From NCBI RefSeq assembly GCF_001695855.1, contig NZ_MBSS01000001.1, positions 434,001 through 498,000 on the forward strand: 64,000 nt of DNA. Direction: 5' to 3'. Below, in pieces: positions 34,177-54,503 of this stretch. How positions within the stretch are numbered: the first letter of the stretch is position 1; each line of letters begins with the position of its first letter. A program made the position numbers and the translations under genes. The notes beneath the pieces are model-generated. The model saw only the letters and a program-made list of their open reading frames with translations. It was not told the origin of the DNA and ran no database searches. The stretch is from Ensifer sp. LC163. GTDB taxonomy: Bacteria; Pseudomonadota; Alphaproteobacteria; Rhizobiales; Rhizobiaceae.

Positions 34177-34248
34177 AATGTGTTTCCGGCCTGATCCGGC
34201 CGGCCCCTGCTGCCTTGCATGAACGTCAACGATAAAGGGAACAGCGTC

Positions 34249-35409: not shown

Positions 35410-35419
35410 CTCCACGTTT

Positions 35420-35533: not shown

Positions 35534-35566
35534 GAACTCGACAATCATTTCTACGGACCAAATCTC

Positions 35567-36433
35567 ATGCCCGCGGCAACGAACACGAAGAGAAACCTGG
35601 TGACGGCAGCGCTGGTGGCGCCGGCGGCGGCATGGCTGATGATCTTTCTCGTCCTGCCGTTCATCGCCATGCTGGTCTTCGCCTTCGGCGAGCGCGCGCC
35701 GGAAGGAGGCTATCAGGCGGCCTTCACCTTCGCCCAGTTCGCGAGGCTCCCGACACGCGCGGCTGCCTTCTGGAACACGCTGGTGCTGGCGCCGGTCGGC
35801 GCGCTGCTCTGCCTGCTGGTCGCCTACCCCGTCGCCTATTACCTCGCCGTCAAGGCGGACCCACGCTACCGCCTGATCCTCGTGTCGCTGGTCGTGGTGC
35901 CCTTCTGGACGAGCCTGCTCGTTCGTACCTATGCCTGGATGTATATCCTCGGCTCGCGCGGCATCCCGAACCTGTTGTCGATGGTCGGTTTTGAGGATGT
36001 GCGCCTGCTCAATACGCCGGGCGCCGTGCTGCTCGGCATCGTCTATGGCTACCTGCCGCTGATGATCATGCCGATCTATGTCAGCCTCGAAAAGCTCGAT
36101 CGGCGTCTGCTCGAAGCTTCCGCCGATCTTGGCGCCAGGCCGGTCTCGACCTTCTTCGGTGTCACACTGCCGCTGTCGCTCCCGGGCGTCATGACCGGCG
36201 TCGCGCTCGTCACCATCCTGCTGCTCGGCGAGTACTTGATCCCGCAGCTGCTGGGCGGCGGCAAGGTGTTCTTCATCGGCAACGCGCTGGTCGATCTCTT
36301 CCTGCAATCGAGAAACTGGCCCTTCGGCTCGGCGATCGCCGTGACGCTGGTGGCCGTCGTCGTGGTGATCCTGATGGTAGCGATGCGCATCGCCTTCAAA
36401 GTCGCCGGCACAAGACAGGTGGATCTCGTCTGA
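35567..36433 (+). CDS. ABC transporter permease (PotB-like)
   Basis: A 288-residue permease with about six hydrophobic helices and an EAA-type loop in RRLLEASADLGARPVSTFFGVTLPLS. It starts 34 bases after the RIME element; its stop shares bases with the next start (TGATG at 36431-36435). It pairs with the 36433 gene product and the 33088 ATPase. Confidence 0.88.
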   Translation: MPAATNTKRNLVTAALVAPAAAWLMIFLVLPFIAMLVFAFGERAPEGGYQAAFTFAQFARLPTRAAAFWNTLVLAPVGALLCLLVAYPVAYYLAVKADPRYRLILVSLVVVPFWTSLLVRTYAWMYILGSRGIPNLLSMVGFEDVRLLNTPGAVLLGIVYGYLPLMIMPIYVSLEKLDRRLLEASADLGARPVSTFFGVTLPLSLPGVMTGVALVTILLLGEYLIPQLLGGGKVFFIGNALVDLFLQSRNWPFGSAIAVTLVAVVVVILMVAMRIAFKVAGTRQVDLV

Positions 36434-37251
36434 TGCGCGCCTTCATCTCCTCGGTCTATCTCTTCCTCTACGCACCGATCGCGCTGGTCGTCTTGTTCTC
36501 GTTCAATGCCGGACGCAGCGCCAGCGAGTTCACCGGCTTTTCGACCGCCTGGTACGGCAAGGCGCTGAGCAATACCTTCCTGGTCTCGGCCCTGCAGAAC
36601 AGCCTGATGATCGCCTTTACCAGCGCCACCCTCGCCGCGATCTTCGGCACCATGGCCGCGCTCGGCATGGAGCGGCTTGCCCCGCGCAACCGGGCGATCT
36701 TCGACGCGCTCTTTGCCGCGGCCATCGTCGTGCCCGGCGTCGTCATCGGCATCGCCACGCTCGTCGCCCTTGTTGCCGTCTTCTCCTTCGTCAATCCGGC
36801 GCTGACGGCGATCTGGCCGGGCGACCAGCCGCCACAGCTCGGGCTCGGCTATGGCTCGATCATCGCCGCCCACGGCCTGTTCTCGATGGCGCTCGTCACC
36901 ATGATCGTCAAGGCGCGCATCGCCAGCCTCGGGCGTGATATCGTCGAGGCATCGAGCGACCTCTATGCGACGCCGCTCACCACCTTCCGGCTGATCGTGC
37001 TGCCGCAGATCCTGCCGTCGATCCTCGCCGGCTTCCTCTTGGCCTTCACCTTCTCCTTCGACGATTTCATCATCGCCTTCTTCGTCGCCGGCTCGAAGAC
37101 GACGCTGCCGATCTACGTCTTCGCCTCGATCCGCCGCGGCGTCACGCCGGAGATCAACGCGATCGCGACGCTGGTGCTCGTCGCCTCGCTGCTTCTGATC
37201 CTGACTGCCCGCATCCTGATGCGGGAAAAGAAAACGAAATCCGGGGAGTGA
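36433..37251 (+). CDS. ABC transporter permease (PotC-like)
   Basis: A 272-residue permease, about six helices, EAA loop in DIVEASSDLYATPLTTFRLIVLPQIL and the SFDDFIIAFFVAG segment typical of PotC. It is translationally coupled to the preceding permease. The SDR gene begins 4 bases after its stop. Confidence 0.88.
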   Translation: MRAFISSVYLFLYAPIALVVLFSFNAGRSASEFTGFSTAWYGKALSNTFLVSALQNSLMIAFTSATLAAIFGTMAALGMERLAPRNRAIFDALFAAAIVVPGVVIGIATLVALVAVFSFVNPALTAIWPGDQPPQLGLGYGSIIAAHGLFSMALVTMIVKARIASLGRDIVEASSDLYATPLTTFRLIVLPQILPSILAGFLLAFTFSFDDFIIAFFVAGSKTTLPIYVFASIRRGVTPEINAIATLVLVASLLLILTARILMREKKTKSGE

Positions 37252-38338: not shown

Positions 38339-39997
38339 TCACACTTTCACATGCCCGATGCCCTTGGCGGCGATCTCCTCGAAACTCTCGTCGTAACCGG
38401 CATCGGCATAACGGATGACGCCGAGCGCGGTGTCGTTGGTGAGCGCGTGGTCGAGCCGCTCGTCGGCAGCTTGCGTGCCGTCGGCAACCACCGTCACGCC
38501 GCAGCTCGTCATGTAGCCGGCATAGCCGCCGCCGCCCGAATGCACGACGACGAGGTCGGCCATCGATGAGCACAGCAGCATGGCGTCGAGCAGCGGCCAG
38601 TCGGCGATGGCGTCGGATCCGTCCTTCATCCGCTCGGTCATGATGTTGGGGTGCGCCATGGCGCCGGCATCGAGGTGGTCGCGCGAAAAGGCGACCGGCC
38701 CCTTGAGCGCGCCTGAGGCCACCAGTTCGTTGACGCGGCGGGCAAGCGCCGTGCGCTCGCCATGCCCAAGCCAGGCGATGCGCGCCGGCAGGCCCTCGAA
38801 GGGAATATGCTCACGCGCGAGCTTGATCCAGTTGGTGACGATCCGGTTGTCCGGGAACATTTCCAAGAGCAGGTCGTCGATGCGGGCGATGTCGCTCTCC
38901 TCGCCGGACAGCGCCATCCAGCGGAACGGCCCGATGGCCCGGGCAAAGAGCGGGCGCAGATAGGCCTCGGTGAAGATCGGAATGTCGAAGGCGTTGGCGA
39001 CGCCGCCCTCGCGCGCCTGGGTGCGGATGAGGTTGCCGTTGTCGAAGACTTCCGCGCCTTGTCTCTGGAAGTCGAGCATCGCCGTCACATGCTCGACGAT
39101 CGAGGCGCGGCTTGCGGCCATCAACTGCCCCTGGCCGTCGTCGCGCAGCGATTTCACCTGATCGACCGTCATGCCCTTCGGCACATAGCCGTAGACGAGA
39201 TCGTGGGTCGAGGTCTGGTCGGTCACCACGTCGGGCACGATGCCGCGCCGGGCGATTTCCGGGTAGATTTCCGCCGCATTGCCGACGAGGCCGACGGAGA
39301 GCGCGCGCTTGTCCTTCACCGCCGCATCGATCATCGCAAGCGCCGTATCCAGATCCGGCGCAATCTCCTGGAGATAGCCGACTTGCTGGCGCTTCTTCGC
39401 CCGCTCCGGGTCGATGTCGACGCAGAGGATAGCGGCCCCGGCCATCCGTCCGGCAAGCGGCTGCGCCCCCCCCATGCCGCCGAGCCCGGCCGTCAGCACG
39501 AAGCGGCCGGAGAGATCACCGCCGAAGCGCCGCTCGGCGATGCGCATAAAGATTTCGTAGGTGCCCTGGATCACCCCTTGGCTGCCGATATATTGCCAGG
39601 CGCCGGCCGTGAGCCCGCCCCAGCAGATCAGCCCCTTGCGCTGCAGCTCGTAGAAGACCTCGGCCTTGGCCCATTGGCCGACGATGTTGCAATTGGCCAT
39701 GATCACCAGCGGCGCTTTGGCATGAGTCTTCAAGAGCCCGACCGGCTTGCCCGACTGGATGATCAGCGTCTGGTCCTCGTCCATCTCGATCAGCGCCTTG
39801 ACGATGGCGCGGTGGGCCGGCCAGTTGCGCGCCGCCTTGCCGAGTGCCGCATAGACGACGAGATTGTCCGGGTCCTCGCCGACGGAAAGTACGTTTTCCA
39901 ACAGCCGCAGCAAGGCTTCCTGCCGCCAGCCCTTGGCACGCAGCTCCGGCCCGCCGGGGATCGGGAAGTCAGGATGACGGGGATTGGCCTTGGGCAT
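38339..39997 (-). CDS. urocanase-family hydratase (candidate thiourocanate hydratase)
   Basis: A 552-residue urocanase homologue. The NAD-binding core TAGLGGMGGAQPLA and the QSGKPVG, DHLDAG and DGSDA blocks are conserved, so the fold and the bound NAD are safe. Where HutU has HHGGGVGMGFSQHSG this protein has VHSGGGGYAGYMTSCG. HutU YGGIGRAARNW becomes YAALGKAARNW, and MYGQMTAGSW becomes CWGGLTAGAW. These changes cluster in the imidazole-binding regions, so I favour a modified substrate such as thiourocanate or a methylated urocanate. Adding water gives an imidazolone-type propionate. It is the last gene of the minus-strand block; no hutI, hutF or hutG lies nearby. Confidence 0.82.
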   Translation of the reverse strand: MPKANPRHPDFPIPGGPELRAKGWRQEALLRLLENVLSVGEDPDNLVVYAALGKAARNWPAHRAIVKALIEMDEDQTLIIQSGKPVGLLKTHAKAPLVIMANCNIVGQWAKAEVFYELQRKGLICWGGLTAGAWQYIGSQGVIQGTYEIFMRIAERRFGGDLSGRFVLTAGLGGMGGAQPLAGRMAGAAILCVDIDPERAKKRQQVGYLQEIAPDLDTALAMIDAAVKDKRALSVGLVGNAAEIYPEIARRGIVPDVVTDQTSTHDLVYGYVPKGMTVDQVKSLRDDGQGQLMAASRASIVEHVTAMLDFQRQGAEVFDNGNLIRTQAREGGVANAFDIPIFTEAYLRPLFARAIGPFRWMALSGEESDIARIDDLLLEMFPDNRIVTNWIKLAREHIPFEGLPARIAWLGHGERTALARRVNELVASGALKGPVAFSRDHLDAGAMAHPNIMTERMKDGSDAIADWPLLDAMLLCSSMADLVVVHSGGGGYAGYMTSCGVTVVADGTQAADERLDHALTNDTALGVIRYADAGYDESFEEIAAKGIGHVKV

Positions 39998-40035: not shown

Positions 40036-40234
40036 GCCCCTCACCCTAACCCTCTCCCCGCAAGCGGGGAGAGGGGATGGCTTAGTGCTTGTGGCGAGCG
40101 CCGCATGCGATCTCCACCGCTCTGCTTTCTTCCATCCTCGGAGAGAGAATGGTGCACCGACTGCCGCACCGCTACATGCAAAGGCGGTCTCGTCCCCTCT
40201 CCCCGCCCGCGGGGAGAGGGTTAGGCTGAGGGGC
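40036..40234. repeat. RIME-like composite repeat
   Basis: Left palindrome CCTCTCCCCGC/GCGGGGAGAGG (about 40050-40075) and right palindrome CCCTCTCCCCGCCCGCGGGG (about 40196-40219), bounded by CCCCTCACCCTAA and TTAGGCTGAGGGG. It separates the urocanase-like gene from the TfoX-like gene. Confidence 0.78.
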
Positions 40235-40260
40235 AAGACATCGCTCGCCCGTTCTCTCAT

Positions 40261-40590
40261 TCACTTCGGCGGCAACGTCTCGATGAAGGCGAGCGCCGCA
40301 TCGATGAGCCGCTTGCGCAAGCCGTCGTCGCCATAGGCGTCTGCCCCCGCGCGCACCCACCCGTGCATCGCCCGCCCGTTCATCACCATCAGCTCGATAT
40401 CGGGCAGTGCCAGCGCCCAGCCGTCATTGCCCTTGCCGAGCCGCACCAGCAGCGAGCCCTCGCGGGCACCACAGATCAGATTGCCGTTGAGCAGAAACGC
40501 CCAGCCGCCGAACATGGCCTTTTCCGACAGTCCGGATCGGTTGCCGAGCTCTTCCCGGATCAGCTCTTCCAGTCCTGCATCGCGTGCCAT
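40261..40590 (-). CDS. TfoX/Sxy N-terminal-domain protein
   Basis: A 109-residue single-domain protein with the TfoX_N pattern (KAMFGGWAFLLNGNLICGA, LLVRLGK, MNGRAMHGWVRA). Full-length TfoX/Sxy activates competence genes, but stand-alone N-domains are common in Rhizobiales with unknown role. ATG 40590 follows GGGAGAAAGG; an in-frame extension to 40698 lies inside the DUF917 gene. It sits 13 bases after the DUF917 stop and is flanked downstream by a RIME element, so it looks like a passenger in the catabolic cluster. Confidence 0.82.
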   Translation of the reverse strand: MARDAGLEELIREELGNRSGLSEKAMFGGWAFLLNGNLICGAREGSLLVRLGKGNDGWALALPDIELMVMNGRAMHGWVRAGADAYGDDGLRKRLIDAALAFIETLPPK

Positions 40591-40603
40591 GACCTTTCTC
40601 CCA

Positions 40604-41701
40604 TCATTGCCGCTCAGCGAGCGCGTAGCGGGCAAGCTCAATACCCATCGCCTTTTCCACCGAGGGGTAGACGCTCGGGTCGAGCACGCTGGAGGCAAGC
40701 GGGATCACCGTCTTCGGCACATGCAGCACGAAGATCTTCATGCCGACCTGCAGTTGGCCGACGCTCAAGGGTTCCCCCTCCGGCGAAAGCGTGGTGATGA
40801 CGTCGGGGAAGGTGGCGAGCCTCTCACCTTCCGCAGAGTCAACCGCCATGTATTCGTTCATCACGCGCAATATCGTTGAGTCAGCGCCCTTCCCCAGCGT
40901 CACCGTGCCGATGTCGAAAGCTTCCTTGGTGTAGACGACCGACTTGTCGGTGATCACGCCTTCGGCGAGCAGCGCGCCATTGGTCGTCTTGACGATCGCG
41001 TCGATGATGGCGCTGCCACCCTTGGCTTCGGCGGCAATGATCGCCTCGCCCAGCTTGAGCGCCAGCGAGATGCCGCCGAGTGCCGCATTGTCCCTAACGT
41101 AGGAGGCGCGCACCGGATTGCGGCAGGAGGCGATGAAGCCGCCGGACATGTCGGAGGCCGTGCGCAGGATCGGCGAGACCTTGGCGGTCGCGCCGCGCAC
41201 CACCAGCTCGATATAGCGGTTCTCCTCGCGGTTGCCCCCGACGGCCGTCTGGATCATCCGCTCGGGCGAGCCGGCAAGGCCGATCGAGCCCATGTCGCCG
41301 GTCGGATGCGCCCGGATGTCGCCGACGGCATCGACCACCTTGGTGCCGAGGATTGCCGATGGCAGCCAGCCGTTGAGCGTCGAGGACTTGCCGTTCTGGC
41401 CGATGATCAGGCCCGAGAGCTTCTCGCCGAGCGCCTCCTGCAGCAATTGCACCGCCTTGACGTAATCGACGCCGCGCATCTCCCAGGGTGTGGTCGAGGC
41501 CGGTGCGCCGATGGCCGCCGCCGTCGCCACCCAGTCGTTGGCGTCGAGTTCGTCGATCGACACCAGCTCCGGCTTGCCGATCGAGACCGCGGCATAGCCG
41601 AGCATGCGGCCGTGATCGGCCCAGCCGCCGCCGCCGGCTGCATAGACGGAACCGCCCTTGACCGCAGCCTCGACATCCTTTTCCGTCAATATCCGGCCCA
41701 T
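40604..41701 (-). CDS. DUF917 protein (S-methyl-thiohydantoin desulfurase-like)
   Basis: A 365-residue DUF917 protein. From memory, the Pfam domains of this family now carry names referring to S-methyl-thiohydantoin desulfurase. Recognisable features are the N-terminal GGSVYAAGGGGWADHGRMLGYAAV with Gly-rich turn and Asp-His, the TPWEMRG segment, IIGQNGKSSTLNGWLPS and the AHPTGDMGSIGLAGSP block. In an ergothioneine pathway this enzyme would strip sulfur from 2-thioxo-imidazolidinone propionate, giving hydantoin-5-propionate. It is 1 base from the M20 gene, so it shares its transcript. The family call is firm, the reaction is inferred. Confidence 0.78.
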   Translation of the reverse strand: MGRILTEKDVEAAVKGGSVYAAGGGGWADHGRMLGYAAVSIGKPELVSIDELDANDWVATAAAIGAPASTTPWEMRGVDYVKAVQLLQEALGEKLSGLIIGQNGKSSTLNGWLPSAILGTKVVDAVGDIRAHPTGDMGSIGLAGSPERMIQTAVGGNREENRYIELVVRGATAKVSPILRTASDMSGGFIASCRNPVRASYVRDNAALGGISLALKLGEAIIAAEAKGGSAIIDAIVKTTNGALLAEGVITDKSVVYTKEAFDIGTVTLGKGADSTILRVMNEYMAVDSAEGERLATFPDVITTLSPEGEPLSVGQLQVGMKIFVLHVPKTVIPLASSVLDPSVYPSVEKAMGIELARYALAERQ

Positions 41702-41702
41702 C

Positions 41703-42974
41703 TCAAACCTTCTCCTGCAATCGTTTATCGAGCCTCTTCACCGCATCGAAGAGAACGGCGGCGCCAAGCGCGATATCATCGTTTTCCGCCCATTCTTCCG
41801 GCGCATGCGAGCGTCCGCCGAGGCACGGAATGAAGATCATCGCCGAGCGGGTGATGCGCCCCATCCAGGCGGTATCGTGCCCGGCGCCGGAGGCCATGCG
41901 CCGATGTTTCGCGCCGATCTCCACGCAGCTTTCTTCGAGCGTCGAAAGCAAGAGCGCGTCGCCCGGCGTCGGATGGTTGTCGGAGAGAACATTGGCGGGC
42001 GCGATGGTTACGCCGGCTTCGCCGGCAACCCGCTCGGCAAGCGCACCCAGCTCGGCGATGAACCGCTCCATCTGCGGCCGCAGCTCGGCACGGGCATCGA
42101 TCAGCAGCCGCGCCCGCGACGGCACGACATTGGCCGCGTTCGGTTCGATCGAGAATTCGCCGACCGTCGCCGTGAAATGCCCCTCGCCCTTGGAAAATTC
42201 CGTCGCCAGCGTCTCGATCGCCAGCACCAGCCGGGAGGCGGCGACCAGCGCGTCGCGCCGATGGCCCATCGGCGTGGTGCCGGCATGGTCCGCCTGGCCT
42301 TCGACGATGATCTCGATGCGGGTGATGCCGGAGATCGCTGTGACGACACCGATATCCAGGCGCCCGGTCTCCAGCACCGGCCCCTGCTCGATATGCAGTT
42401 CCAGAAACGCCTTGATGTCGGAGCGCTTGAGCGCCGACAGCCGCGACGGATCGCCGCCAGCCTCGACGATACCCTGCCGCAGGCTGAGCTCACCCTGCAC
42501 CCGGCTCAGCCAGCCATCCGGCAGGATGCCCGCCATGCCGCGGCTGCCGACGCAGGAAACGCCGAAGATCGACACTTCCTCGGCGAGGAAGTCGACGATC
42601 TCCAGGTCGTGATCGAGTTCGATGCCGGCATCCGAAAGCGCGCGCGCCACTTCAAGCGCGGCGGCGACGCCGGCAATGCCGTCGAAGCGGCCGCCCTCCG
42701 GCACCGTGTCGGAATGGGAGCCGAGCATCAGCGTGCCAAGCGCCGACTTGCGCCCCTTGCGCCGGCCGATGAGATTGCCGGCGGCATCGATGCGCGTCTC
42801 CAGCCCCGCCGCACGGAAGCGACGGTCAAGGAACGCCCGACCTTCCAGGAACAGCGGCGTAAAAGCCCGGCGCGTATAGGGCCGGTCCGGCTCGGTGATG
42901 CCCGCAAGGCCGTTGACGATGCCGGCAATCCGGCTCGCATCCACGGGCAGATTGGTCTTGACGCTCGTGCTCAT
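41703..42974 (-). CDS. M20-family N-carbamoyl-amino-acid amidohydrolase / ureidohydrolase
   Basis: A 423-residue M20 peptidase-fold enzyme of the L-carbamoylase/allantoate amidohydrolase group. Metal ligands are visible: GSHSDTV, GRFDG, FLAEE, LHIEQGP and the late GRSHAPEE. The carbamoyl-binding Arg/Gln blocks (HAGTTPMGHRRDA, EPNAANVVPSRA) are present. It would convert N-carbamoyl-L-glutamate to glutamate, CO2 and ammonia at the end of a hydantoin-propionate route. ATG 42974 overlaps the hydantoinase-like stop by 4 bases, an arrangement typical of hydantoinase-carbamoylase pairs. Confidence 0.85.
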   Translation of the reverse strand: MSTSVKTNLPVDASRIAGIVNGLAGITEPDRPYTRRAFTPLFLEGRAFLDRRFRAAGLETRIDAAGNLIGRRKGRKSALGTLMLGSHSDTVPEGGRFDGIAGVAAALEVARALSDAGIELDHDLEIVDFLAEEVSIFGVSCVGSRGMAGILPDGWLSRVQGELSLRQGIVEAGGDPSRLSALKRSDIKAFLELHIEQGPVLETGRLDIGVVTAISGITRIEIIVEGQADHAGTTPMGHRRDALVAASRLVLAIETLATEFSKGEGHFTATVGEFSIEPNAANVVPSRARLLIDARAELRPQMERFIAELGALAERVAGEAGVTIAPANVLSDNHPTPGDALLLSTLEESCVEIGAKHRRMASGAGHDTAWMGRITRSAMIFIPCLGGRSHAPEEWAENDDIALGAAVLFDAVKRLDKRLQEKV

Positions 42975-44350
42975 CGGGCCTCCTGCAACGGCAACGTCTG
43001 GAGCGGGCGAACGAAGGCGCCAGTGCCGGGCTTCGCGACGACGGTGCGCCCGTCAAAGGCAGGCGCTCCGCGCAGATAGGTCGCCGACACCCGCCAGGGC
43101 AGTCTGATCCCGTTATAGGGCGACCATCCCACGACATTGTTACCGCTTTCGGCCGCGTCATAGGTGTAGGGCTCGGGCGTCATGACGATGATATCGGCGT
43201 CCTTTCCGGCCTCAAGCGCACCCTTTCGATGGTCGAGGCGGAAATGCCGTGCCGGGTTCAACGTCATCAGCTCGGCCGCCCGCGTCAACGGAATGCCGCG
43301 CTCAAGAGCGCCCTTGACGAACAGCGGCACCATCACCTCGAGGCCCGGCACGCCGGAGGCATTGGCGAGCATGTCAGGGTTGGTCTTGCGATCCTCCGAC
43401 CAGCTGACATGGTCTGTCGAAACCATCGTCACCGTGCCGTCGGCCACATGCCGCCAGAGCTTTTCCACCTCGGCGCGCGGACGGATCGGCGGATTGATCT
43501 TCGCCTTGCCGCCGAGCCGACGGACGTCGTTCTCCTCGTCAAGCGTCAGGTAGTGGATGCAGCATTCGATCGTCGCCGCGTGGCCCTGGGCCCGGTAAGC
43601 GGCGGCGATCTCATAGCCGCGTCCGAGCGAGCAATGCACGACATGCGCCGGGCACCCGGTCGAAGCACCCGTCTCGTAGATCTGGTTGGTCGCCAAAAGC
43701 TCGGTCAGCGGCGGCCGAGAAAGGCCGTGGGCACGATAGTCGGTAATGCCTGCGGCCCTGACCCTTTCGATCGCGCCGCGCACCGCCTCGTCATCCTCGT
43801 TATGCACCCCGGCGGTAAGCCCCGTCGGCGCAATCGCGCGAAAGCAATCCTCGAGCAGCGCTGCGGGAATGCGCGGAAAGCGTTTCGGGTCGGTGCCGAA
43901 GGTCGAGAACTTGAAGGCGGCGACACCGGCTTCGACCATTTCGACAATGCGGGCTGGCCCCTCCTCGGGGTCAACCGTGCCATAGAGGGCGAAATCGACG
44001 CGCGCCTGCGGGCTCGCATGCTCGACCTTGCGTGCGACTGCCTCGGCCGAGCAGACGAGATTGCCCTCGTCATAGGGCATGTCGACGATAACAGTCACGC
44101 CGCCGGCGGCGGCCGAACGGGTCGACCAGACGAAATCCTCCTGTTTCTTCTGCGACAGCGAATGCACCTGCGCATCGATGGCACCGGGCAGGATCATAGC
44201 GTTTCCAAGATCGTGGCGTTCACGGGCGGCAGGTGCCGCCCCCTGCCCGACATGCACGACCTTGCCGTCGCGCACGGCCACATGCCCGCCCTCGACGAGC
44301 CTGTGCGGGAGAACAACGGTGCCTTTCAGGACAAGATCGAAATCGGACAT
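42971..44350 (-). CDS. dihydropyrimidinase/hydantoinase-like cyclic amidohydrolase
   Basis: A 459-residue amidohydrolase-superfamily enzyme. The carboxylated Lys in AFKFSTFGT, His ligands in GVHNEDD and HVVHCSLGRG, and the Asp of STDHVSW are conserved. The usual N-terminal HxH reads Q61-V-H63 (DAQVHSLS), so one metal-binding His is Gln. A one-metal or altered binuclear centre is therefore expected. Proposed reaction: ring opening of hydantoin-5-propionate to N-carbamoylglutamate, fed by the DUF917 protein and drained by the M20 enzyme. It follows the ammonia-lyase-like gene by 18 bases. Allantoinase is the alternative, but no purine genes are nearby. Confidence 0.82.
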   Translation of the reverse strand: MSDFDLVLKGTVVLPHRLVEGGHVAVRDGKVVHVGQGAAPAARERHDLGNAMILPGAIDAQVHSLSQKKQEDFVWSTRSAAAGGVTVIVDMPYDEGNLVCSAEAVARKVEHASPQARVDFALYGTVDPEEGPARIVEMVEAGVAAFKFSTFGTDPKRFPRIPAALLEDCFRAIAPTGLTAGVHNEDDEAVRGAIERVRAAGITDYRAHGLSRPPLTELLATNQIYETGASTGCPAHVVHCSLGRGYEIAAAYRAQGHAATIECCIHYLTLDEENDVRRLGGKAKINPPIRPRAEVEKLWRHVADGTVTMVSTDHVSWSEDRKTNPDMLANASGVPGLEVMVPLFVKGALERGIPLTRAAELMTLNPARHFRLDHRKGALEAGKDADIIVMTPEPYTYDAAESGNNVVGWSPYNGIRLPWRVSATYLRGAPAFDGRTVVAKPGTGAFVRPLQTLPLQEAR

Positions 44351-44368: not shown

Positions 44369-45907
44369 TCACTTGCCCAGTGCAAAGAAGTCGTCGAATT
44401 CCGGCATCGGTGCCATGGAGACGAAGGCGCGCAGCAGGTCATGGCAGGTGAAGGCGTCCTGCAACGCTTCGATCTCCTTCGAAAGCGGCCGGTCCTTCAG
44501 GTAGATCGGGCTGATCGATCGCGTGCGATCATGCGCGAGCTTGACGATCCCCTGCGGGGCGTCGCCGACGAGGTCGATCGCCTGCGCCGACAGGATCGCC
44601 TCGATCGCCGCCAGCTGCCGGAGGTCCCGCACCTGCGTTTCCATGCGCTCGACGATCAAAGGCAGGAAGGTCGCCTCTTCCTCCAGTCCGCCGGCAACGA
44701 CGATCGACTGGGCCGAAAGCGGCACCGCCATCGACTGCACGCGCATGTAGAGCTCGACCGCAAGCTTCATCAGCGGGCCGAGACCGGTGGCGACTTCGCC
44801 CGGCGCCACCAGATTGACCGGCAGATTGCGGCGGCCGCCGTTCGACAACAGGATGCAGCGGTTGAGCACGTTGCGCGCCACATGCGAAAAGGCGATCTGC
44901 GCCGTCTCGACATAGAGCGTCGTCGTCAAAGGCAGCGAAGCGCCCGAGGCATGCACATGGCCGCCGAGCACCACCGGATTGTCGTCGGAGAGATAGGTCG
45001 CCTCGACCAGCCGGCCGGCGGCAACCAGCAACGTATCGACGACGGCGCCGAACACCTGGGCGGTCATGCGCAGGCTCAAGGGATCGTGGATCGCCGTCGG
45101 TAAGGGCCAGTCGGCAACGCCGGACTGGCCGTAGAGCCAGGAGCCGACAAGCGCTTCGCCGCGCGTCGACAGCGTCGCCGCCACCCGCCACGGATCGGCG
45201 GAGGCGCCGAGCGCCAACGACGACGTCACCCCGGTAACCAAGAGCACGCGGATTGCTGCTGCCGCCTCGCGCAGCACATCGGCTGCCGCCGAATAGGCGA
45301 TGGCGTTGACGCTGAGGGCGGCAAGCGCATCGCGCGGCCGCATCACCAGCGGCTTCAGTCCGGCATCGGCGAGCGCCGTTTCGGCCGGCACCAGCCGGCC
45401 GCGATGATAGGCTTCACCGACCCCGGTCAAGACAGCCGCGATCTGCCCCATCAGGCCGATATCGGCGCAGCCCATCGAGCCATGGCGGCGCACCGCCGGA
45501 ATGATGTCGTGCTCGATGAGCGCCAGGAAGGCGGTGATCAGCTCGGGACTGCAGCCGGTGTGACCACGCATCGCGGTGTTGCAGCGGATGGCGATCGCCT
45601 TGCGCACGATCGGGACAGTGAAAAATTCGCCGGTGCCGAAATGGTGGGCGCGCACCAGAGAAGTGTTGAACTCGGCCAGATCGTCCGCCGTCCAGAGCCG
45701 GTCCTTCATCGAGCCGACACCGGTGTTGGAACCGTAGACCGGCAGGCCGAGCGCGATGCGATCGGCAATCACCTTGTGGGCCGCCGCCACCCGCTCCATG
45801 CCGCCATCGTCCGCGACCGGCCGCGCCGCGCCCGAGCCGATTTCCTCGAGGGTCGCGAAGTCGAGCGGTTTCCCGCAGAGAACAATGGTTTTGACCTGTT
45901 GCAGCAT
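44369..45907 (-). CDS. MIO-less histidine-ammonia-lyase homologue, candidate ergothionase
   Basis: A 512-residue member of the aromatic amino acid lyase fold with the conserved VYGSNTGVGSMKDR Tyr loop and the NAIAYS and helix-bundle blocks. HAL builds its electrophilic MIO cofactor from Ala-Ser-Gly inside GSxGASGDL. Here residues 143-150 read GSMGCADI, so the triad is Cys-Ala-Asp and MIO cannot form in the normal way. Ergothionase, which eliminates trimethylamine from ergothioneine, is a known HAL-fold lyase that does not use MIO because trimethylamine is a good leaving group. With urocanase-, DUF917-, hydantoinase- and carbamoylase-like genes behind it, ergothioneine trimethylammonia-lyase is my first choice. 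A lyase for another histidine betaine is second. It is the first gene of its operon, divergent from the LysR gene. Confidence 0.8.
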   Translation of the reverse strand: MLQQVKTIVLCGKPLDFATLEEIGSGAARPVADDGGMERVAAAHKVIADRIALGLPVYGSNTGVGSMKDRLWTADDLAEFNTSLVRAHHFGTGEFFTVPIVRKAIAIRCNTAMRGHTGCSPELITAFLALIEHDIIPAVRRHGSMGCADIGLMGQIAAVLTGVGEAYHRGRLVPAETALADAGLKPLVMRPRDALAALSVNAIAYSAAADVLREAAAAIRVLLVTGVTSSLALGASADPWRVAATLSTRGEALVGSWLYGQSGVADWPLPTAIHDPLSLRMTAQVFGAVVDTLLVAAGRLVEATYLSDDNPVVLGGHVHASGASLPLTTTLYVETAQIAFSHVARNVLNRCILLSNGGRRNLPVNLVAPGEVATGLGPLMKLAVELYMRVQSMAVPLSAQSIVVAGGLEEEATFLPLIVERMETQVRDLRQLAAIEAILSAQAIDLVGDAPQGIVKLAHDRTRSISPIYLKDRPLSKEIEALQDAFTCHDLLRAFVSMAPMPEFDDFFALGK

Positions 45908-46116: not shown

Positions 46117-47313
46117 ATGGATATCGCCACGATCCTGCTCGTCGAAGCCGTCATGCGCGAAGGCGGCATCAGGCGCGCCGCCACCCTGAGCGGTCGCGCG
46201 CCGTCGAGCGTCAGCGCCGCCGTTCGCCGCTTCGAGCAGGCCATTTCCATTCCCCTCTTCCGCCGCGACGGCAGCCTTATGGCTTTGACCTTGGAGGCTC
46301 GTGCGCGACAGGCCGATGTGACCGCGGCCAGCGCAACCATCCGGGCGCTGCTCGCCACTGCCAACGCGGAGCCGCCGAGCGCGATCCCACCCGTTGGCCT
46401 CGTCACACTCGATCGTTTCGTGCGGATCGCCCGGGCAGGCAGCATTCGGGCAGCTGCCCGCACGTTGGGCCTCGGCCAGCCGCAACTGACGCGGCAGATC
46501 GCCGACCTCGAACGTCATCTCCAGTGCCGATTGCTTGAGCGCTCCCATGGCGGCATCGTCTGCACGCCGGCCGCCCTCGACATCATCCCGCATGTCGAGC
46601 GCCTGCTCGACATCTGGACGCGGCTGACGCGCGCCTCGGCCGACCGGTTCCGTCGCGACGTCACCACCTGGCGCCTCGGCGCCGTCATGCCGCTTGGGCC
46701 GGAGAGCGAGATCGCCCGCATGCTGGCGGCGCTGACGGCCGCCTGGCATCGCTCCCGCCCGCGGCAATCGCTGTTCATTTCCAGCACCACCGCCGACGAG
46801 CTTCTGGCCGGCCTCAAGAGCCGACGCTTCGACGCCGCCCTGCTCGATGTTGCCGGCATTCCCAACGACTTCGACGGCCGGCTCGTGTCCGAAACGCCGC
46901 TGGTGCTAGCCGGCCCGGCGCCGGCCCTTTCCGAAATGGCCGGCGATCTCCCGCGGCTACTCGCCACCTGCCCGATCGCCGTGCCGAGCGCACGCAGCGG
47001 CCTGCGCCGGGAGGTGACCCGCTTCCTCGAAGACACGCTCGGCGAGGCGGAACGTCGCCGCGTGACGCTGGTCGAGGTCGATTCCATTCCCGTCATCATC
47101 AACCTGGTCAGCCATCACGGCTACCTCTCGGTGCTGCCGGAAACCTCGCTGTCACGCGTCCAGCGGCCGCCCGCCATGATCCGGCTGGGGCCGCTCTACC
47201 GCCAGTCGCTGACCCTCGTCTGGCCGCGCGGCGCCTTTTCCAGCGAGGTCGGCGACCTGATGATCGGCATGATGAAAGCGGGTCCGCAGGCGACGACGGC
47301 GTTGCCGACGTAA
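46117..47313 (+). CDS. LysR-type regulator with two N-terminal HTH domains
   Basis: A 398-residue regulator. A first LysR-like HTH covers about residues 3-62 (GGIRRAATLSGRAPSSVSAAVRRFEQ, IPLFRRDG), and a complete second LysR HTH follows at about 92-150 (AGSIRAAARTLGLGQPQLTRQIADLERHL, CRLLERSHGG), then a normal LysR effector domain (about 175-385). Ordinary LTTRs are about 300 residues with one HTH. ATG 46117 follows GGAG at 10 bases; GTG 45988 and other in-frame starts lie in the promoter. It diverges from the MIO-less lyase gene across a 209-base gap and is its probable regulator. Confidence 0.85.
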   Translation: MDIATILLVEAVMREGGIRRAATLSGRAPSSVSAAVRRFEQAISIPLFRRDGSLMALTLEARARQADVTAASATIRALLATANAEPPSAIPPVGLVTLDRFVRIARAGSIRAAARTLGLGQPQLTRQIADLERHLQCRLLERSHGGIVCTPAALDIIPHVERLLDIWTRLTRASADRFRRDVTTWRLGAVMPLGPESEIARMLAALTAAWHRSRPRQSLFISSTTADELLAGLKSRRFDAALLDVAGIPNDFDGRLVSETPLVLAGPAPALSEMAGDLPRLLATCPIAVPSARSGLRREVTRFLEDTLGEAERRRVTLVEVDSIPVIINLVSHHGYLSVLPETSLSRVQRPPAMIRLGPLYRQSLTLVWPRGAFSSEVGDLMIGMMKAGPQATTALPT

Positions 47314-47452: not shown

Positions 47453-48490
47453 TTAGGGATGTCCTGACGCCTTGTCCTTGCCGGCCACGCCATCGAGCTG
47501 GCGGTTGCGATCCTCGGCACCATGGCCGAGCTTCAGCCGCCGCCGTGTCTCGCTCGGGCTTTCGCGGTAGTGCGCGCGGTAGCTGCGCGAGAACGACGAC
47601 GACGAGTTGAAACCCGAGATCGCGGCGATGTCGGCGAACTCCATGCGCGTCTCGATCACCTTGCGCCGCGCCGCATTGAGGCGCAGCGCCAGGTAATGTT
47701 CGTGCGGCCCCACCCCCATCGTGTCGCGAAACAGGTCCTGCAGATGCCGGACGCTGACGCCGATGCGGCGGGCCAGGCGCTGAAGCGTCAACGGCGCCTC
47801 GACCGTTTCCTCCATCAGCTTGACCGCGGCGCCGACACGCGGGTCGAGGATGCGCATGTTGCCGATCGCCGGCATCTGCAGGAGGTCGCCGCGGGTGCGC
47901 TCCTGCTCGTAGATGAACAGCCGCGACACTTCGAGCGCCAGCGAATAGCCGTGCGCCCGGCGGATCAGCTCCAGCATCAGGTCGAGCGTCGGCAGGGAGC
48001 CACCGGTGGTGATGCGCTTGCCGTCGATGACGAACCGTTCGCGCACCATCGTGACCTGCGGATAGGTCGTGGTGAAATCCTCGAAATCCTCCCAGTGGGT
48101 GGTGGCCTTTGAATTGTCGAGCAGGCTCGTTTCGGCAAGCAGCCAGGAGCCGGATTCGATGCCCGCCATCATCTCGCGATGCCGCGCTGTCTGCGACAGC
48201 ATCATCTTCAGCTGCGAGGTCGCACTCCTCTGCCAGTTGTAGCTCGACAGGATGAAAAGCGGCGCCGTTTCGCGCTGCGGCCGGAACGCACCCGAAACCG
48301 GAATGGGAATGCCGCTCTTGGTTTCGATCGGCTCGCCGTCCGGGCTGTAGAGCGTCCAGCTGTAGAGCGGCCGTCCGGCAATGCGGTTGGCGGCGCGCAT
48401 CGGTTCGATCACCGAGGCAACGAGGATCAGATTGGTCTCCGGCAACACCAGGATATCGGCATGCTGCACCTGCGAAACGCTCTGATCCAT
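47453..48490 (-). CDS. cdhR: GlxA-family AraC-type regulator (CdhR-like)
   Basis: A 345-residue regulator with an N-terminal DJ-1/PfpI (GATase-1-like) domain (about residues 10-190) and a C-terminal AraC HTH pair (LTLQRLARRIGVSVRHLQDLFRDTMG and IAAISGFNSSSSFSRSYRAHYRESP). Members of this family (CdhR, GbdR, SouR) control carnitine, glycine betaine and sarcosine use. The gene diverges from a carnitine catabolic operon exactly as Pseudomonas cdhR does. ATG 48490 has GGAGAAG at 7 bases; TTG 48496 is less likely. Activation by L-carnitine is inferred from the family. Confidence 0.83.
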   Translation of the reverse strand: MDQSVSQVQHADILVLPETNLILVASVIEPMRAANRIAGRPLYSWTLYSPDGEPIETKSGIPIPVSGAFRPQRETAPLFILSSYNWQRSATSQLKMMLSQTARHREMMAGIESGSWLLAETSLLDNSKATTHWEDFEDFTTTYPQVTMVRERFVIDGKRITTGGSLPTLDLMLELIRRAHGYSLALEVSRLFIYEQERTRGDLLQMPAIGNMRILDPRVGAAVKLMEETVEAPLTLQRLARRIGVSVRHLQDLFRDTMGVGPHEHYLALRLNAARRKVIETRMEFADIAAISGFNSSSSFSRSYRAHYRESPSETRRRLKLGHGAEDRNRQLDGVAGKDKASGHP

Positions 48491-48598
48491 TTGCAAACTT
48501 CTCCATCTCGTTGCCGATAATGTACAATCTAGTACTGATTATGAAAAGCAGCGCCGTCGTTCTTGGCTCGTAATGGCCGCAATAAAAGGGAGACAGCA
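48491..48598. promoter_or_regulatory. divergent promoter region between cdhR-like regulator and BKACE genes
   Basis: 108 bases. GTAC-AATCTA-GTAC (48520-48534 region) within an AT-rich core ATGTACAATCTAGTACTGAT is the only symmetric motif and a candidate activator site. AAAAGGGAGA supplies the BKACE ribosome site. Confidence 0.35.
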
Positions 48599-49501
48599 AT
48601 GCCGCTCAGCATGAACCGCGAGGTATTCATCACCTGTGCCGTCACCGGCGCCGGCGACACCGTTTCAAAGTCCAGCCACGTTCCGATCACGCCGAAGCAG
48701 ATTGCCGACGCGGCGATCGAGGCCGCCAAGGCGGGTGCTGCCGTGGCCCACTGTCACGTCCGCGATCCGGAGACCGGCGCGCCTGCCCGCAGGCTCGACC
48801 TCTACCGCGAAGTGACCGATCGCATTCGCTCCGCCGATGTCGATGTCGTGCTCAATCTGACGGCCGGCATGGGCGGGGACCTGGTTTTCGGCAACGTCGA
48901 AAGCCCCTTCCCGGTCAACGAGAAAGGCACCGACATGGCCGGCGCCACCGAGCGCGTCGCCCATGTGGCAGACTGTCTGCCGGAGATCTGCACGCTCGAC
49001 TGCGGCACCATGAACTTCTCGCTCGGCGACTATGTCATGACCAACACGCCGTCGATGCTGCGCGAAATGGCCCGCCAGATGACGGCGCTCGGCGTGCGCC
49101 CCGAGATCGAGGCCTTCGACACCGGCCACCTCTGGTTCGCCAAGCAGCTCGCCGAGGAAGGGCTGATCGAGGATCCGGTGCTGATCCAGCTCTGCATGGG
49201 CATTCCGTGGGGGGCGCCCGACGATCTCAACACCTTCATGGCCATGGTCAACAACGTGCCGGCCAACTGGACCTTCTCGGCCTTCTCCATCGGCCGCAAC
49301 GCGCTTGCCTATCCGGCAGCGGCGATCCTTGCCGGCGGCAACGTGCGCGTCGGCCTCGAAGACAACCTCTATATCGGCAAGGGCCAGCTCGCCACCAACG
49401 GCCAGCTCGTCGAAAAGGCGGTCGGCGTCATCGAGGGCATGGGCGCCAAGATCATCGGGCCGGACGAGGTCCGCAAGAAACTGAAGCTGACGAAGCGCTG
49501 A
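48599..49501 (+). CDS. cdhC: beta-keto acid cleavage enzyme, 3-dehydrocarnitine:acetyl-CoA type
   Basis: A 300-residue BKACE (DUF849) enzyme: Zn-binding HCHVRDP near residue 49, FITCAVTGAG at the start, LNLTAGMGGD, the EAFDTGH block and the GGNVRVGLEDNLY motif. In carnitine breakdown this enzyme reacts 3-dehydrocarnitine with acetyl-CoA to give betainyl-CoA and acetoacetate. ATG 48599 follows AAAAGGGAGA. It is 11 bases upstream of the carnitine dehydrogenase fusion gene, its functional partner. Confidence 0.88.
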   Translation: MPLSMNREVFITCAVTGAGDTVSKSSHVPITPKQIADAAIEAAKAGAAVAHCHVRDPETGAPARRLDLYREVTDRIRSADVDVVLNLTAGMGGDLVFGNVESPFPVNEKGTDMAGATERVAHVADCLPEICTLDCGTMNFSLGDYVMTNTPSMLREMARQMTALGVRPEIEAFDTGHLWFAKQLAEEGLIEDPVLIQLCMGIPWGAPDDLNTFMAMVNNVPANWTFSAFSIGRNALAYPAAAILAGGNVRVGLEDNLYIGKGQLATNGQLVEKAVGVIEGMGAKIIGPDEVRKKLKLTKR

Positions 49502-49512
49502 GCGGGGATATC

Positions 49513-51003
49513 ATGAGCCTTATTGAGAAAGCAGCCTGCGTCGGTGGCGGCGTCATCGGCGGCGCCTGGGTGGCCCGCTTCGCGCTTGCCGGCATCGACG
49601 TGAAAATTTTCGACCCGCATCCGGAAGCCGAGCGCATCATCGGCGAAGTCATGGCCAATGCCGAGCGCGCCTATGCTATGCTGACCATGGCGCCGCTGCC
49701 GCCGAAGGGAAAACTCACCTTCTGCAAAAGCATCGAGGAAACGGTCAAGGACGCTGATTGGATTCAGGAAAGCGTGCCGGAACGGCTGGAGCTGAAGCGC
49801 GGCGTCATCACCCAGATCGACGCGGCTGCAAGGCCCGACGCGCTGATCGGCTCGTCGACATCGGGCCTGCTGCCCTCCGACCTGCAGGCCGAGATGAAGC
49901 ATCCCGAGCGCATGTTCGTGGCGCATCCCTATAACCCCGTCTACCTCCTGCCGCTGGTCGAACTCGTCGGCGGCAAGAAGACCTCGAAGGCGACGATCGA
50001 GCGCGCCATGCAGGGTGTCGAGCAGATCGGCATGAAGGGCGTCGTCATCGCCAAGGAGATCGAGGCCTTCGTCGGCGACCGCCTGCTGGAAGCGCTCTGG
50101 CGCGAGGCGCTGTGGCTGATCCAGGACGACATCTGCGATACCGAAACGCTCGACAACGTCATGCGTTACTCCTTCGGCATGCGCTGGGCGCAGATGGGCC
50201 TGTTCGAAACCTATCGCATCGCCGGCGGCGAAGCCGGCATGCGCCACTTCCTCGCCCAGTTCGGCCCTTGCCTCAAATGGCCCTGGACCAAATTCACCGA
50301 CGTCGTCGACCTCGATGATGCGCTGGTGGAAAAGATCGGTGCGCAGTCGGACGCACAGGCCGCCGGCCGCTCGATCCGCGAGCTCGAACGCATCCGCGAC
50401 GAAAACCTCGTCGGCATCATGCACGCGCTGAAATCGGGCAATGGCGGCGAAGGTTGGGGTGCGGGCAAGCTGCTCGCCGATTTCGAGGCAAAGCTTTGGG
50501 CCAACGCCCGGAAGCCTGAAGCCGATCTCGGTGACGTCAAGCCGTTGCGCATCCTCGACACCAAGGTCAGTGCCGCCTGGGTCGATTATAACGGCCACAT
50601 GACCGAGCACCGCTATCTCCAGGTGTTCGGCGACACCTCGGACGGCCTGCTGCGCTTGATCGGCGTCGACCTCGACTATGTCCGCGACGGCCACAGCTAC
50701 TACACGGTCGAGACCCATATCCGCAACCTCGGCGAGGCCAAGCTCGGCGACGCGCTCTACTCGACCTGCCAGCTCCTGTCCTCGGACGAGAAGCGGCTGC
50801 ACATCTTCTCGACCATCTACAATGCCGAGACCAACGAGGCAGTCGCGACCGCCGAGCAGATGATGCTGCATGTCGACAGCAAGGCCGGCAAATCCGTCGC
50901 TACCCCGGCGAGGATCCTGGACAAACTGAAGGCGATCACCGAGGCCCATGCCGGCCTGCCGACTCCAGAAGGTGCCGGCCGGTTCGTCGGCCAGAAGCGC
51001 TGA
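49513..51003 (+). CDS. L-carnitine dehydrogenase-thioesterase fusion
   Basis: A 496-residue two-domain protein. Residues 1 to about 320 are a 3-hydroxyacyl-CoA-dehydrogenase-like NAD enzyme (GGGVIGGAWVARFALAG, VPERLELK, SSTSGLLPSDL, HPYNPVYLLPLVELVGG) oxidising L-carnitine to 3-dehydrocarnitine. Residues about 345-496 are a hotdog thioesterase (VSAAWVDYNGHMTEHRYLQVF) that would hydrolyse betainyl-CoA to glycine betaine. The same fusion is known from Sinorhizobium, while Pseudomonas has separate cdhA and cdhB. ATG 49513 is used; open frame upstream is shadow of the BKACE gene. A RIME-like element follows. Confidence 0.9.
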   Translation: MSLIEKAACVGGGVIGGAWVARFALAGIDVKIFDPHPEAERIIGEVMANAERAYAMLTMAPLPPKGKLTFCKSIEETVKDADWIQESVPERLELKRGVITQIDAAARPDALIGSSTSGLLPSDLQAEMKHPERMFVAHPYNPVYLLPLVELVGGKKTSKATIERAMQGVEQIGMKGVVIAKEIEAFVGDRLLEALWREALWLIQDDICDTETLDNVMRYSFGMRWAQMGLFETYRIAGGEAGMRHFLAQFGPCLKWPWTKFTDVVDLDDALVEKIGAQSDAQAAGRSIRELERIRDENLVGIMHALKSGNGGEGWGAGKLLADFEAKLWANARKPEADLGDVKPLRILDTKVSAAWVDYNGHMTEHRYLQVFGDTSDGLLRLIGVDLDYVRDGHSYYTVETHIRNLGEAKLGDALYSTCQLLSSDEKRLHIFSTIYNAETNEAVATAEQMMLHVDSKAGKSVATPARILDKLKAITEAHAGLPTPEGAGRFVGQKR

Positions 51004-51057
51004 GATTAGCCTTCCGTCTTCGGAGGGTGTGCCGGCGGGCAATGTCGGGCGACGACC

Positions 51058-51204
51058 GCCCCTCAGCCCGCTGCCGCGACCTTCTCCCCGTGAACGGGGA
51101 GAAGGGGAGTGCCGCAGCCGCTCGTTCCTCTCGCCATCGGGAGTGCGAGCGGCAAAAGCGTCCCCTCTCCCCGCCTGCGGGGAGAGGGCTAGGGTGAGGG
51201 GCAG
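51058..51204. repeat. RIME-like composite repeat splitting the carnitine cluster
   Basis: CCTTCTCCCCG/CGGGGAGAAGG near 51080-51105 and CCCTCTCCCCGC...GCGGGGAGAGGG near 51166-51188, bounded by CCCCTCAGCC and GGTGAGGGGC. It lies between the dehydrogenase fusion and acyl-CoA dehydrogenase genes. Confidence 0.78.
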
Positions 51205-51273
51205 ACAAGCATGCCGGCGGCCGATGGAGAGATCGGCCACAGGGCGGGCAGGAAAAATCGCGAGGGAGAACAA

Positions 51274-52434
51274 ATGAATTTCGCACTGACCGAAGAACAG
51301 CAGATGATCGTCGACACGGTCAGGAGCTTCGTCGAGACCGAAATCTATCCGCATGAGGACGAGGTCGAGCGCACCGGCATCGTGCCGCGCGAACTCGGCC
51401 AGGATATCGCCCGCAAGTGCAAGGAAATCGGCTTCTTCGGCTGCAATTTCCCCGAAGAGGTGGGCGGCGCCGGGCTCGACCATACCTCCTTCACGTTGGT
51501 CGAGCGCGAACTCGGTCGCGGCTCGATGGGCCTGACCGTCTTCTTCGGCCGCCCGTCGGGCATCCTGATGGCCTGCAACGACGAGCAGCGCGAAAGATAC
51601 CTGCTACCGGCGGTCAGGGGCGACAAATTCGATGCGCTGGCCATGACCGAGCCGGATGCGGGCTCCGACGTGCGCGGCATGAAGTGTTTTGCCCGCAAGG
51701 ACGGCGACGACTGGATCGTCAACGGCACCAAGCATTTCATCAGCCATGCCGACATCGCCGATTTCGTCATCGTCTTCATCGCCACCGGCGAGGAAGACAC
51801 GCCGCACGGACCGAAGAAGAAGATCACCTGCTTCCTCGTCGACCGCGGCACCCCCGGCTTCGAGATCCGCAAGGGATACAGCTCCGTCTCCCACCGCGGC
51901 TACAACAATTGCATCCTGACGTTCGACGATTGCCGCCTGCCCTCCGCCCAGATCCTCGGCGAAGTGCACAAGGGCTTCGACGTCGCCAACGACTGGCTGT
52001 TCGCCACGCGGCTGACGGTGGCGGCGACCTCGGTCGGCCGGGCGCGCCGCGCCTTCGATTATGCGCTGAACTATGCCGCCGAGCGCAAGCAGTTCGGCAA
52101 GCCGATCGGCGCCAACCAGGGCGTCTCGTTCAAGCTCGCCGACATGATCACCGAGATCGACGCCGCCGACCTTTTGACGCTTTCGGCCGCCTGGCGCCTC
52201 GACCAGGGCCTGCCCTCCAATCGCGAGATCGCCTCTGCCAAGGTCTTTGCCACCGAGATGCTCGCACGCGTCACCGACGAGGCGATCCAGATCTTCGGCG
52301 GCATGGGGCTGATGGACGACCTGCCGCTCGCCCGCTTCTGGCGCGACGCCCGCGTCGAGCGCATCTGGGACGGCACCTCCGAGATCCAGCGCCACATCAT
52401 CAGCCGCGACCTGCTACGGCCGCTGGGAGCGTGA
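51274..52434 (+). CDS. acyl-CoA dehydrogenase (gamma-butyrobetainyl-CoA dehydrogenase candidate)
   Basis: A 386-residue FAD acyl-CoA dehydrogenase: ALAMTEPDAGSDV (flavin/substrate site), the RKQFGKPIGANQ block, and the C-terminal catalytic region QIFGGMGLMDDLPLARFWRDARVERIWDGTSEIQ. It would desaturate gamma-butyrobetainyl-CoA to crotonobetainyl-CoA. ATG 51274 follows GAGGGAGAA. It is followed after 7 bases by the CoA synthetase and then a hydratase, the set described for gamma-butyrobetaine-to-carnitine conversion in Sinorhizobium meliloti. Confidence 0.88.
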   Translation: MNFALTEEQQMIVDTVRSFVETEIYPHEDEVERTGIVPRELGQDIARKCKEIGFFGCNFPEEVGGAGLDHTSFTLVERELGRGSMGLTVFFGRPSGILMACNDEQRERYLLPAVRGDKFDALAMTEPDAGSDVRGMKCFARKDGDDWIVNGTKHFISHADIADFVIVFIATGEEDTPHGPKKKITCFLVDRGTPGFEIRKGYSSVSHRGYNNCILTFDDCRLPSAQILGEVHKGFDVANDWLFATRLTVAATSVGRARRAFDYALNYAAERKQFGKPIGANQGVSFKLADMITEIDAADLLTLSAAWRLDQGLPSNREIASAKVFATEMLARVTDEAIQIFGGMGLMDDLPLARFWRDARVERIWDGTSEIQRHIISRDLLRPLGA

Positions 52435-52441
52435 TCGGCCG

Positions 52442-54499: not shown

Positions 54500-54503
54500 C
54501 GCC

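Follow-up and report, generated by a model that had tools for sequence, protein, structure and literature searches.

A probable ergothionase without MIO, from a divergent Cys-type lineage, in a predicted ergothioneine catabolic operon of Ensifer sp. LC163

The window analyzed here, a stretch of 64,000 nucleotides from Ensifer sp. LC163, carries a homolog of histidine ammonia-lyase (HAL) that has lost the Ala-Ser-Gly triad from which MIO is formed by an established chemical route, raising the question of what such a lyase may do without this group. The gene (44369-45907, minus strand) encodes a protein of 512 aa with a putative MIO-free aromatic-amino-acid-lyase fold, which we interpret as a Cys-type ergothionase and call ErtA, the letter A being our own label. 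Positions 45461-45469 read atcggcgca on the plus strand and hence TGC GCC GAT on the minus strand, and these codons 147-149 (Cys-Ala-Asp) lie in frame within an intact gene of 512 codons (45907-44369), as the initial annotation had stated. Residues 143-151 are GSMGCADIG, the stretch being GSMGCADIGLMGQIA and its aligned counterpart in P. putida HAL GSVGASGDLAPLAHMS. The same annotation had described a one-for-one replacement of Ala-Ser-Gly by Cys-Ala-Asp; the alignment with P. putida HAL, other HALs and aminomutases upheld the loss of the MIO precursor but not this register. GSVG-ASG-DLAPLAH of P. putida HAL is matched by GSMG-C.A-DIGLMGQ, so that Ala142 corresponds to Cys147, Ser143 is absent, Gly144 corresponds to Ala148 and Asp149 is the counterpart of HAL Asp145, leaving the loop of the lyase (45461-45469) one residue short. 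The loss of the precursor appears even clearer than first stated and, judged from the sequence, MIO cannot be formed by the known route in the Cys-type lyase, because Ala-Ser-Gly is absent and the loop is shortened by one residue.

A search of genome contigs (genome_contigs) with the lyase protein returned 56 related loci, titled Ensifer, Sinorhizobium, Rhizobium, Pararhizobium, Shinella, Mycoplana or 'Rhizobiales bacterium'. The motif GS[I/M]GCADIGLMGQ was present in every one of them, in the chosen frame in 55 and in another frame in L055, where the lyase gene is frame-shifted. Nei-Gojobori counting was applied to the lyase gene and its counterparts in 15 of the 56 loci (14 of them Ensifer or Sinorhizobium by title and one 'Rhizobiales bacterium'); dN/dS was 0.041-0.113, and the gene is under purifying selection. 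A pseudogene or sequencing error was ruled out by the motif in 56/56 loci together with these dN/dS values, and the earlier claim that the altered motif is not a frameshift was borne out on the same grounds.

The genes around the lyase, which the initial annotation had not considered, form a candidate pathway. In gene direction, the lyase (45907-44369) is followed by genes for ErtD, hydantoin-5-propionate amidohydrolase (42971-44350, minus strand; NF058538, 792.6 bits, cut-off 600), ErtE, N-carbamyl-L-glutamate amidohydrolase (41703-42974, minus strand; NF058540, 597.2 bits, cut-off 520, with the general Zn-dependent hydrolase model NF009531 scoring higher at 686.5, cut-off 486), a thiohydantoin desulfurase (40604-41701, minus strand; NF058529, 602.5 bits, cut-off 440), annotated as DUF917 family in related records, a small TfoX_N-like ORF overlapping the desulfurase end (40261-40698, minus strand; PF04993, 38.2 bits) and a thiourocanate hydratase (38339-39997, minus strand; NF058530, 1058.9 bits, cut-off 930). 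All four later enzymes of ergothioneine breakdown, i.e., hydratase, desulfurase, ErtD and ErtE, were over their NCBIfam cut-offs. The S-methyl-ergothioneine pathway was considered and rejected, as the hydratase reached 743.1 with the S-methyl model NF058531 (cut-off 880) and the desulfurase 284.7 with NF058532 (cut-off 450). Compared with the five-step bacterial ergothioneine catabolism described by the NCBIfam Ert models, four of the five steps are thus represented over curated models in the window, while the first step would here be carried out by the Cys-type lyase and the gene order is lyase-ErtD-ErtE-desulfurase-hydratase. Bacterial ergothioneine catabolism was reportedly reconstituted in vitro by Beliaeva, Leisinger and Seebeck in 2021. 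No ergothionase model was among the NCBIfam matches of the query, of the Treponema denticola sequence or of the Glu-type sequences described below. At a blastp threshold of E up to 1e-15, 55 of the 56 loci gave matches to all five enzymes, the exception being L024, which lies at a contig end and is without the hydratase; some matches in L055, L056 and L057 span only part of the gene. The TfoX_N-like ORF occurs in many, not all, of the related loci.

Divergently from the lyase runs a LysR-type gene (46117-47313, plus strand; PF00126 in two stretches and PF03466), a homolog of which lies on the strand opposite the lyase in 56/56 loci; it is probably the regulator of the operon. The tandem HTH_1 pair ahead of the substrate domain seems to us an unusual layout. 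In the same region we observed a 45-nt palindromic intergenic repeat (CCCTCTCCCCGC..GCGGGGAGAGGG) in three copies (40046-40090, 40191-40235 and 51159-51203), two of them in the gap that separates the small ORF from the hydratase gene.

Could the lyase nevertheless be an ordinary HAL? With 255.4 bits to PF00221 (cut-off 27.3) it belongs to the aromatic amino acid lyase family, whereas it scored 191 bits against the hutH model TIGR01225, whose cut-off is 539.15. Its Ala-Ser-Gly triad is absent and its neighbors are ergothioneine genes, not hut genes. The identity as an ordinary HAL was rejected on the hutH score far under the cut-off, the missing triad and differing active-site residues. Three lyase homologs, the window gene included, were found in the whole genome (E up to 1e-5). 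One is a canonical hutH (G000:C56:56801-58285) with an intact GSVGASGDL motif and 746.9 bits to the hutH model, followed after 0.9 kb by a urocanase-like gene (C56:59174-60769) under the thiourocanate hydratase cut-off; histidine breakdown is thus provided for outside the operon. The initial annotation had held histidine deamination to be unlikely, and the hutH score, a Leu at the HAL Tyr280 site and this separate hutH all agree with it. The third homolog (L003, G000:C5:99425-100876; L109:9396-10928) has a three-residue deletion (GSVGY---LTH) in which the MIO triad is gone. Its surroundings are hut-like, with a HutF-like amidohydrolase and a HutC-like regulator recognized by eye and a ProX-like binding protein under cut-off, and similar loops occur in Thalassospira (L113), Neorhizobium (L114) and Sodalis (L128), at two separate places in the tree.

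The best PDB sequence match of the lyase was T. denticola ergothionase 6s7j (5.4e-51), followed by a probable HAL (2.6e-35), and 6s7j was also the top Foldseek match (TM 0.85-0.86) of an AlphaFold2 model built from 40 sequences (mean pLDDT 82.1, pTM 0.87). The earlier suggestion to compare the protein with T. denticola ergothionase hence proved right. The structure prediction that had been proposed for the active site delivered the fold match, but not the site itself, since the model is poorest in the active-site loops, with pLDDT under 50 at residues 60-69 and 322-325 and a mean of 58 for 141-150. VIA-align likewise placed 6s7j first (Z 37.4, rmsd 2.4 over 479 residues), in effect a tie with the best HAL at 36.7, and sequence identity hardly separates the two, at 25-27% with the T. 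denticola enzyme and 24-26% with HALs. To judge from the model, fold alone does not decide between ergothionase and HAL.

More discriminating were the active-site residues, compared in an alignment of 34 rows including 22 of the Cys lineage, four of the Glu type and six of the HAL type. The lyase shares its fold with HutH of P. putida (1b8f/1gkj) and keeps HAL Tyr53, His83, Arg283 and Glu414 as Tyr58, His88, Arg280 and Glu409. Tyr58 and its loop are present, in line with the initial annotation, which had the substrate-binding Tyr loop retained, and Tyr58, His88, Arg280, Lys381 and Glu409 are invariant in 22/22 Cys-lineage rows. In contrast to HutH, the lyase has no MIO triad and carries Ser199 for Asn195, Leu277 for Tyr280, Ser324 for Phe329 and Lys381 for a Val. 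Ser199, Asp308, Gly377, Lys381 and Ile150 are common to Cys and Glu types and occur in none of the six HAL-type rows. Leu277 is likewise shared by both types, and is also found in the HAL-like L068, the HutH2-like L003 and the Deinococcus row; at this site the six HAL-type rows comprise four with Tyr, 1gkj, which is a Y280F mutant, and L068 (ACG loop) with Leu. All rows of the alignment have Ser144 and Gly146.

T. denticola ergothionase (6s7j, 6s7q) resembles the lyase in having a HAL fold without MIO and a loop one residue short, and the two have Tyr, Lys, Asp, Ser, Leu and Glu positions in common. The lyase retains Tyr, Lys, Asp and Glu at the sites it has in common with 6s7j, but not the Glu of the MIO site: the T. 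denticola enzyme has Glu there and Phe at the HAL Phe329 site, where the lyase has Cys and Ser. Eleven columns (Thr111, Cys147, Gln155, Trp240, Ser324, Arg345, Gly357, Asn365, Pro378, Leu382 and Glu411) set the Cys lineage apart: they do not vary among its 22 rows and differ from those of the four Glu-type and six HAL-type rows, which at the Ser324 position carry Phe. The Cys type thus differs from the Glu type of T. denticola, a point that, like the surrounding pathway, goes beyond the initial annotation. Identity between the lyase and the Glu-type enzymes of T. denticola and Burkholderia is 25-30%. Proteobacterial Glu-type relatives (L074 of Burkholderia arboris, L077 of Paracoccus denitrificans and L092) resemble the window in having hydratase, desulfurase, ErtD and ErtE homologs clustered with the lyase, but differ by a GEAD motif, by falling in a separate clade and by having no carnitine genes within the stretches fetched.

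The main tree comprised 37 rows; two aminomutases served as outgroup, and the columns of the motif were stripped beforehand. Here all sequences whose loop is shorter by exactly one residue formed one clade (100/99, n=20) apart from the MIO enzymes, made up of 14 Cys-type and four Glu-type rows, a GESD row (Deinococcus) and a GAAD row (Paracoccus aminophilus). The Cys type (100/100) and the Glu type (100/98) were each one clade, while their direct join to the exclusion of the two other MIO-free rows was weak (81/31). Constraining the Cys type to group with seven hutH HALs was rejected (p-AU 0.0043). The AU test thus rejects a scenario in which the Cys lineage arose from hutH HALs by losing MIO on its own, within the limits set by long branches (L087, L080, L112, L089 and L124), of which the program warns. 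The claim of a single MIO-free clade is that of the outgroup-rooted, motif-stripped tree alone: an earlier tree with midpoint root, no outgroup and the motif columns in did not resolve the Cys, Glu and HAL grouping and, unlike the main tree, placed the Deinococcus GESD row with HALs (96/94), which counts against this reading. The GAAD-type lyase with its one-residue-deleted loop (L112, P. aminophilus pAMI4, 198931-200367) lies ~13 kb from a hydratase/desulfurase/ErtD/ErtE module, and with its Ala the first position of such loops is seen to hold three different residues, Glu, Cys and Ala.

Co-occurrence was surveyed in 151 genomes from the family of the window, its own genome included; two draws were taken as the same sample since their handles agree. 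The desulfurase was over cut-off in 16 of the 151 genomes (own included), and a Cys-type lyase (E at most 1e-45) was present in 13 of these 16, again including the own genome, and in 0 of the other 135, counts that are not independent because the sampled genomes are related. Leaving out the own genome, 21 genomes had a hydratase or desulfurase over cut-off, and the lyase in the cluster was of Cys type in 16 (one of them, G262, as GCGD), of Glu type in one (G743), ASG-bearing in one (G086) and lacking in three. In the three genomes G554, G717 and G700 (L090/L133, L093/L134 and L095/L135), the whole-genome search (E up to 1e-5) gave one lyase match each, all of them ASG HALs; these strains are possibly feeders on thiourocanate released by others. 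In G086:C3 (L089, L132), the ASG-intact lyase directly adjoins a thiohydantoin desulfurase and a thiourocanate hydratase, and is perhaps a MIO enzyme acting on a thiohistidine that carries an ordinary amino group. A separate observation concerns the pAt plasmid of Agrobacterium tumefaciens Ach5 (L083), where a hydrolase/hydratase cluster is accompanied by a molybdopterin S/N-oxide reductase in the place at which L082 has hutH.

Taken together, sequence, synteny, family assignments, phylogeny and fold similarity make it very probable that the gene encodes an ergothionase that works without MIO and belongs to a divergent Cys-type lineage, catalyzing the first step of an operon that converts ergothioneine to glutamate; from these data we infer co-transcription, activity, substrate and the role of every residue. 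Ammonia leaves poorly, which is why an ammonia-lyase depends on MIO. The lyase would instead eliminate trimethylamine from ergothioneine, yielding thiourocanate without an electrophilic cofactor: trimethylamine should leave readily from the quaternary ammonium and the developing charge would be taken up by the thioimidazole ring, which together would make MIO dispensable. The known ergothionase is stated to lack MIO (PMC13405746). By homology, Tyr58 may serve as acid/base residue and Lys381, Glu409, Asp308 and Arg280 may bind and activate the substrate, and Cys147 at the former MIO site and Ser324 at the former Phe329 site would reshape the pocket; what Tyr58, Lys381, Glu409, Asp308 and Cys147 do is guessed from position. 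Hydratase, desulfurase, ErtD and ErtE would then carry thiourocanate on to glutamate. We consider it a rather doubtful, though not far-fetched, idea that Cys147 is itself involved in the chemistry, e.g., as acid/base, as a thiolate pairing with the trimethylammonium group or in acting towards oxidized ergothioneine, in which case a single site would have been home to three catalytic devices: an electrophile that the protein makes itself, a carboxylate and a thiol.

Of the other explanations, we speculated if the enzyme is a trimethylamine-lyase of the ergothionase clade that prefers a relative of ergothioneine, e.g., oxidized ergothioneine, and releases a thiourocanate-like product, with the Cys and a wider pocket serving that substrate. 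The eleven invariant columns specific to the Cys lineage, among them Cys147, Ser324 and Glu411, would suit such a shift, and a bacterial ergothioneine sulfonate pathway has been reported, according to a title in the reference list of PMC13405746. However, the downstream enzymes fit the plain thio models and stay below the S-methyl cut-offs, and the Glu-type lyases of L074, L077 and L092 are clustered with these same genes, making this substrate unlikely. Stronger objections meet the notion of a HAL without its motif that is inactive or decaying: the HAL-like score in general libraries speaks for it, but the motif is conserved throughout the 56 loci, dN/dS is low in the 15 compared, a canonical hutH exists elsewhere in the genome and the pathway genes lie alongside, a frame-shifted copy in one of the 56 loci (L055) notwithstanding. 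We therefore regard it as very improbable.

A catalytically dead subunit with a regulatory or scaffolding function in the pathway deserves equally little credence. That the same genome holds a second homolog free of the MIO triad, in a hut-like locus, does mean that a MIO-free lyase need not be an ergothionase, but a protein relieved of catalysis is difficult to reconcile with five putative active-site residues (Tyr58, His88, Arg280, Lys381 and Glu409) invariant across the Cys lineage. Least probable of all, to the point of being hardly worth entertaining, is that the Cys-Ala-Asp loop builds another self-made electrophile in place of MIO; the loop lies at the same site and Ser144 and Gly146 are conserved, yet nothing positive points to such a group, the middle position is without a dehydratable residue, one residue is deleted and the related T. 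denticola ergothionase is stated to lack MIO.

If the lyase is indeed an ergothionase, its substrate probably enters from outside. EgtD had no match in the own genome, which is 96.93% complete, and all EgtB matches in it were below cut-off, so that uptake of ergothioneine is more probable than its synthesis. EgtU, a known ergothioneine transporter, is of the quaternary-amine type (PMC9732360), and in three distant Cys-lineage loci (L086, L087 and L102) a glycine-betaine-type ABC binding protein (OpuAC) adjoins the lyase. The ABC transporter beside the operon in the window (33004-37251, ending beside the hydratase) is of polyamine (Pot) type, and such genes are present in only part of the related loci. 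On the other side of the LysR gene, and outside the ergothioneine operon, lies a carnitine-type cluster consisting of a GbdR-like AraC regulator (47453-48496, minus strand; NF052371, 218.1 bits, below the cut-off of 480) and catabolic genes (48563-55286, plus strand) assigned from NCBIfam, Pfam and synteny as BKACE, a carnitine 3-dehydrogenase fusion, an acyl-CoA dehydrogenase, a CoA ligase and an enoyl-CoA hydratase. The carnitine 3-dehydrogenase reached 913.6 bits with NF005716 (cut-off 592) and BKACE was recognized by Pfam, the remaining members only by matches under curated cut-offs. Homologs of the AraC regulator and BKACE were found in 55 of the 56 loci, the exception (L057) being at a contig end, so that the back-to-back arrangement of the carnitine-type genes (47453-55286) with the lyase operon is a conserved pairing in its own group. 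No carnitine-type genes were seen in the stretches fetched for nine distant Cys-lineage loci (L079, L085-L088, L098, L101, L102 and L104), although some of these stretches extend only a little way on the side of the lyase. The carnitine-type and ergothioneine pathways both begin with a trimethylammonium compound.

A MIO-free ergothionase is already known (6s7j; PMC13405746), as is the pathway, with its NCBIfam models. As far as we can tell from the open-access literature, from which subscription papers are mostly missing, the new element is the Cys-type lineage with its changed pocket across the searched Rhizobiaceae loci: no title or abstract there dealt with a Cys-type lyase, and no paper joined histidine ammonia-lyase, MIO and ergothioneine. 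A characterized Cys-type enzyme may already exist. Passages of PMC9103826, PMC7653990 and PMC8364193 mention ergothionase and not its active site; PMC7653990 cites a report of an Agrobacterium radiobacter ergothionase, and PMC13405746 names the ergothionase of Burkholderia sp. HME13. According to the latter paper (2026), ergothionase is confined to few genera and BLAST with the Burkholderia enzyme gave only HAL-, PAL- and TAL-like hits, with the warning that divergent homologs may be missed (PMC13405746). Just such homologs make up the Cys type, which, if present in that search, would have been just another HAL-like match; the sole Cys-type gene whose annotation was seen (L085) is called an aromatic amino acid ammonia-lyase. 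The series of MIO, Glu and Cys at one site offers a direct test of how a lyase works once the leaving group spares the cofactor. If the activity is confirmed, soil and root bacteria would be a wider sink for ergothioneine, and a wider source of trimethylamine, than has been supposed.
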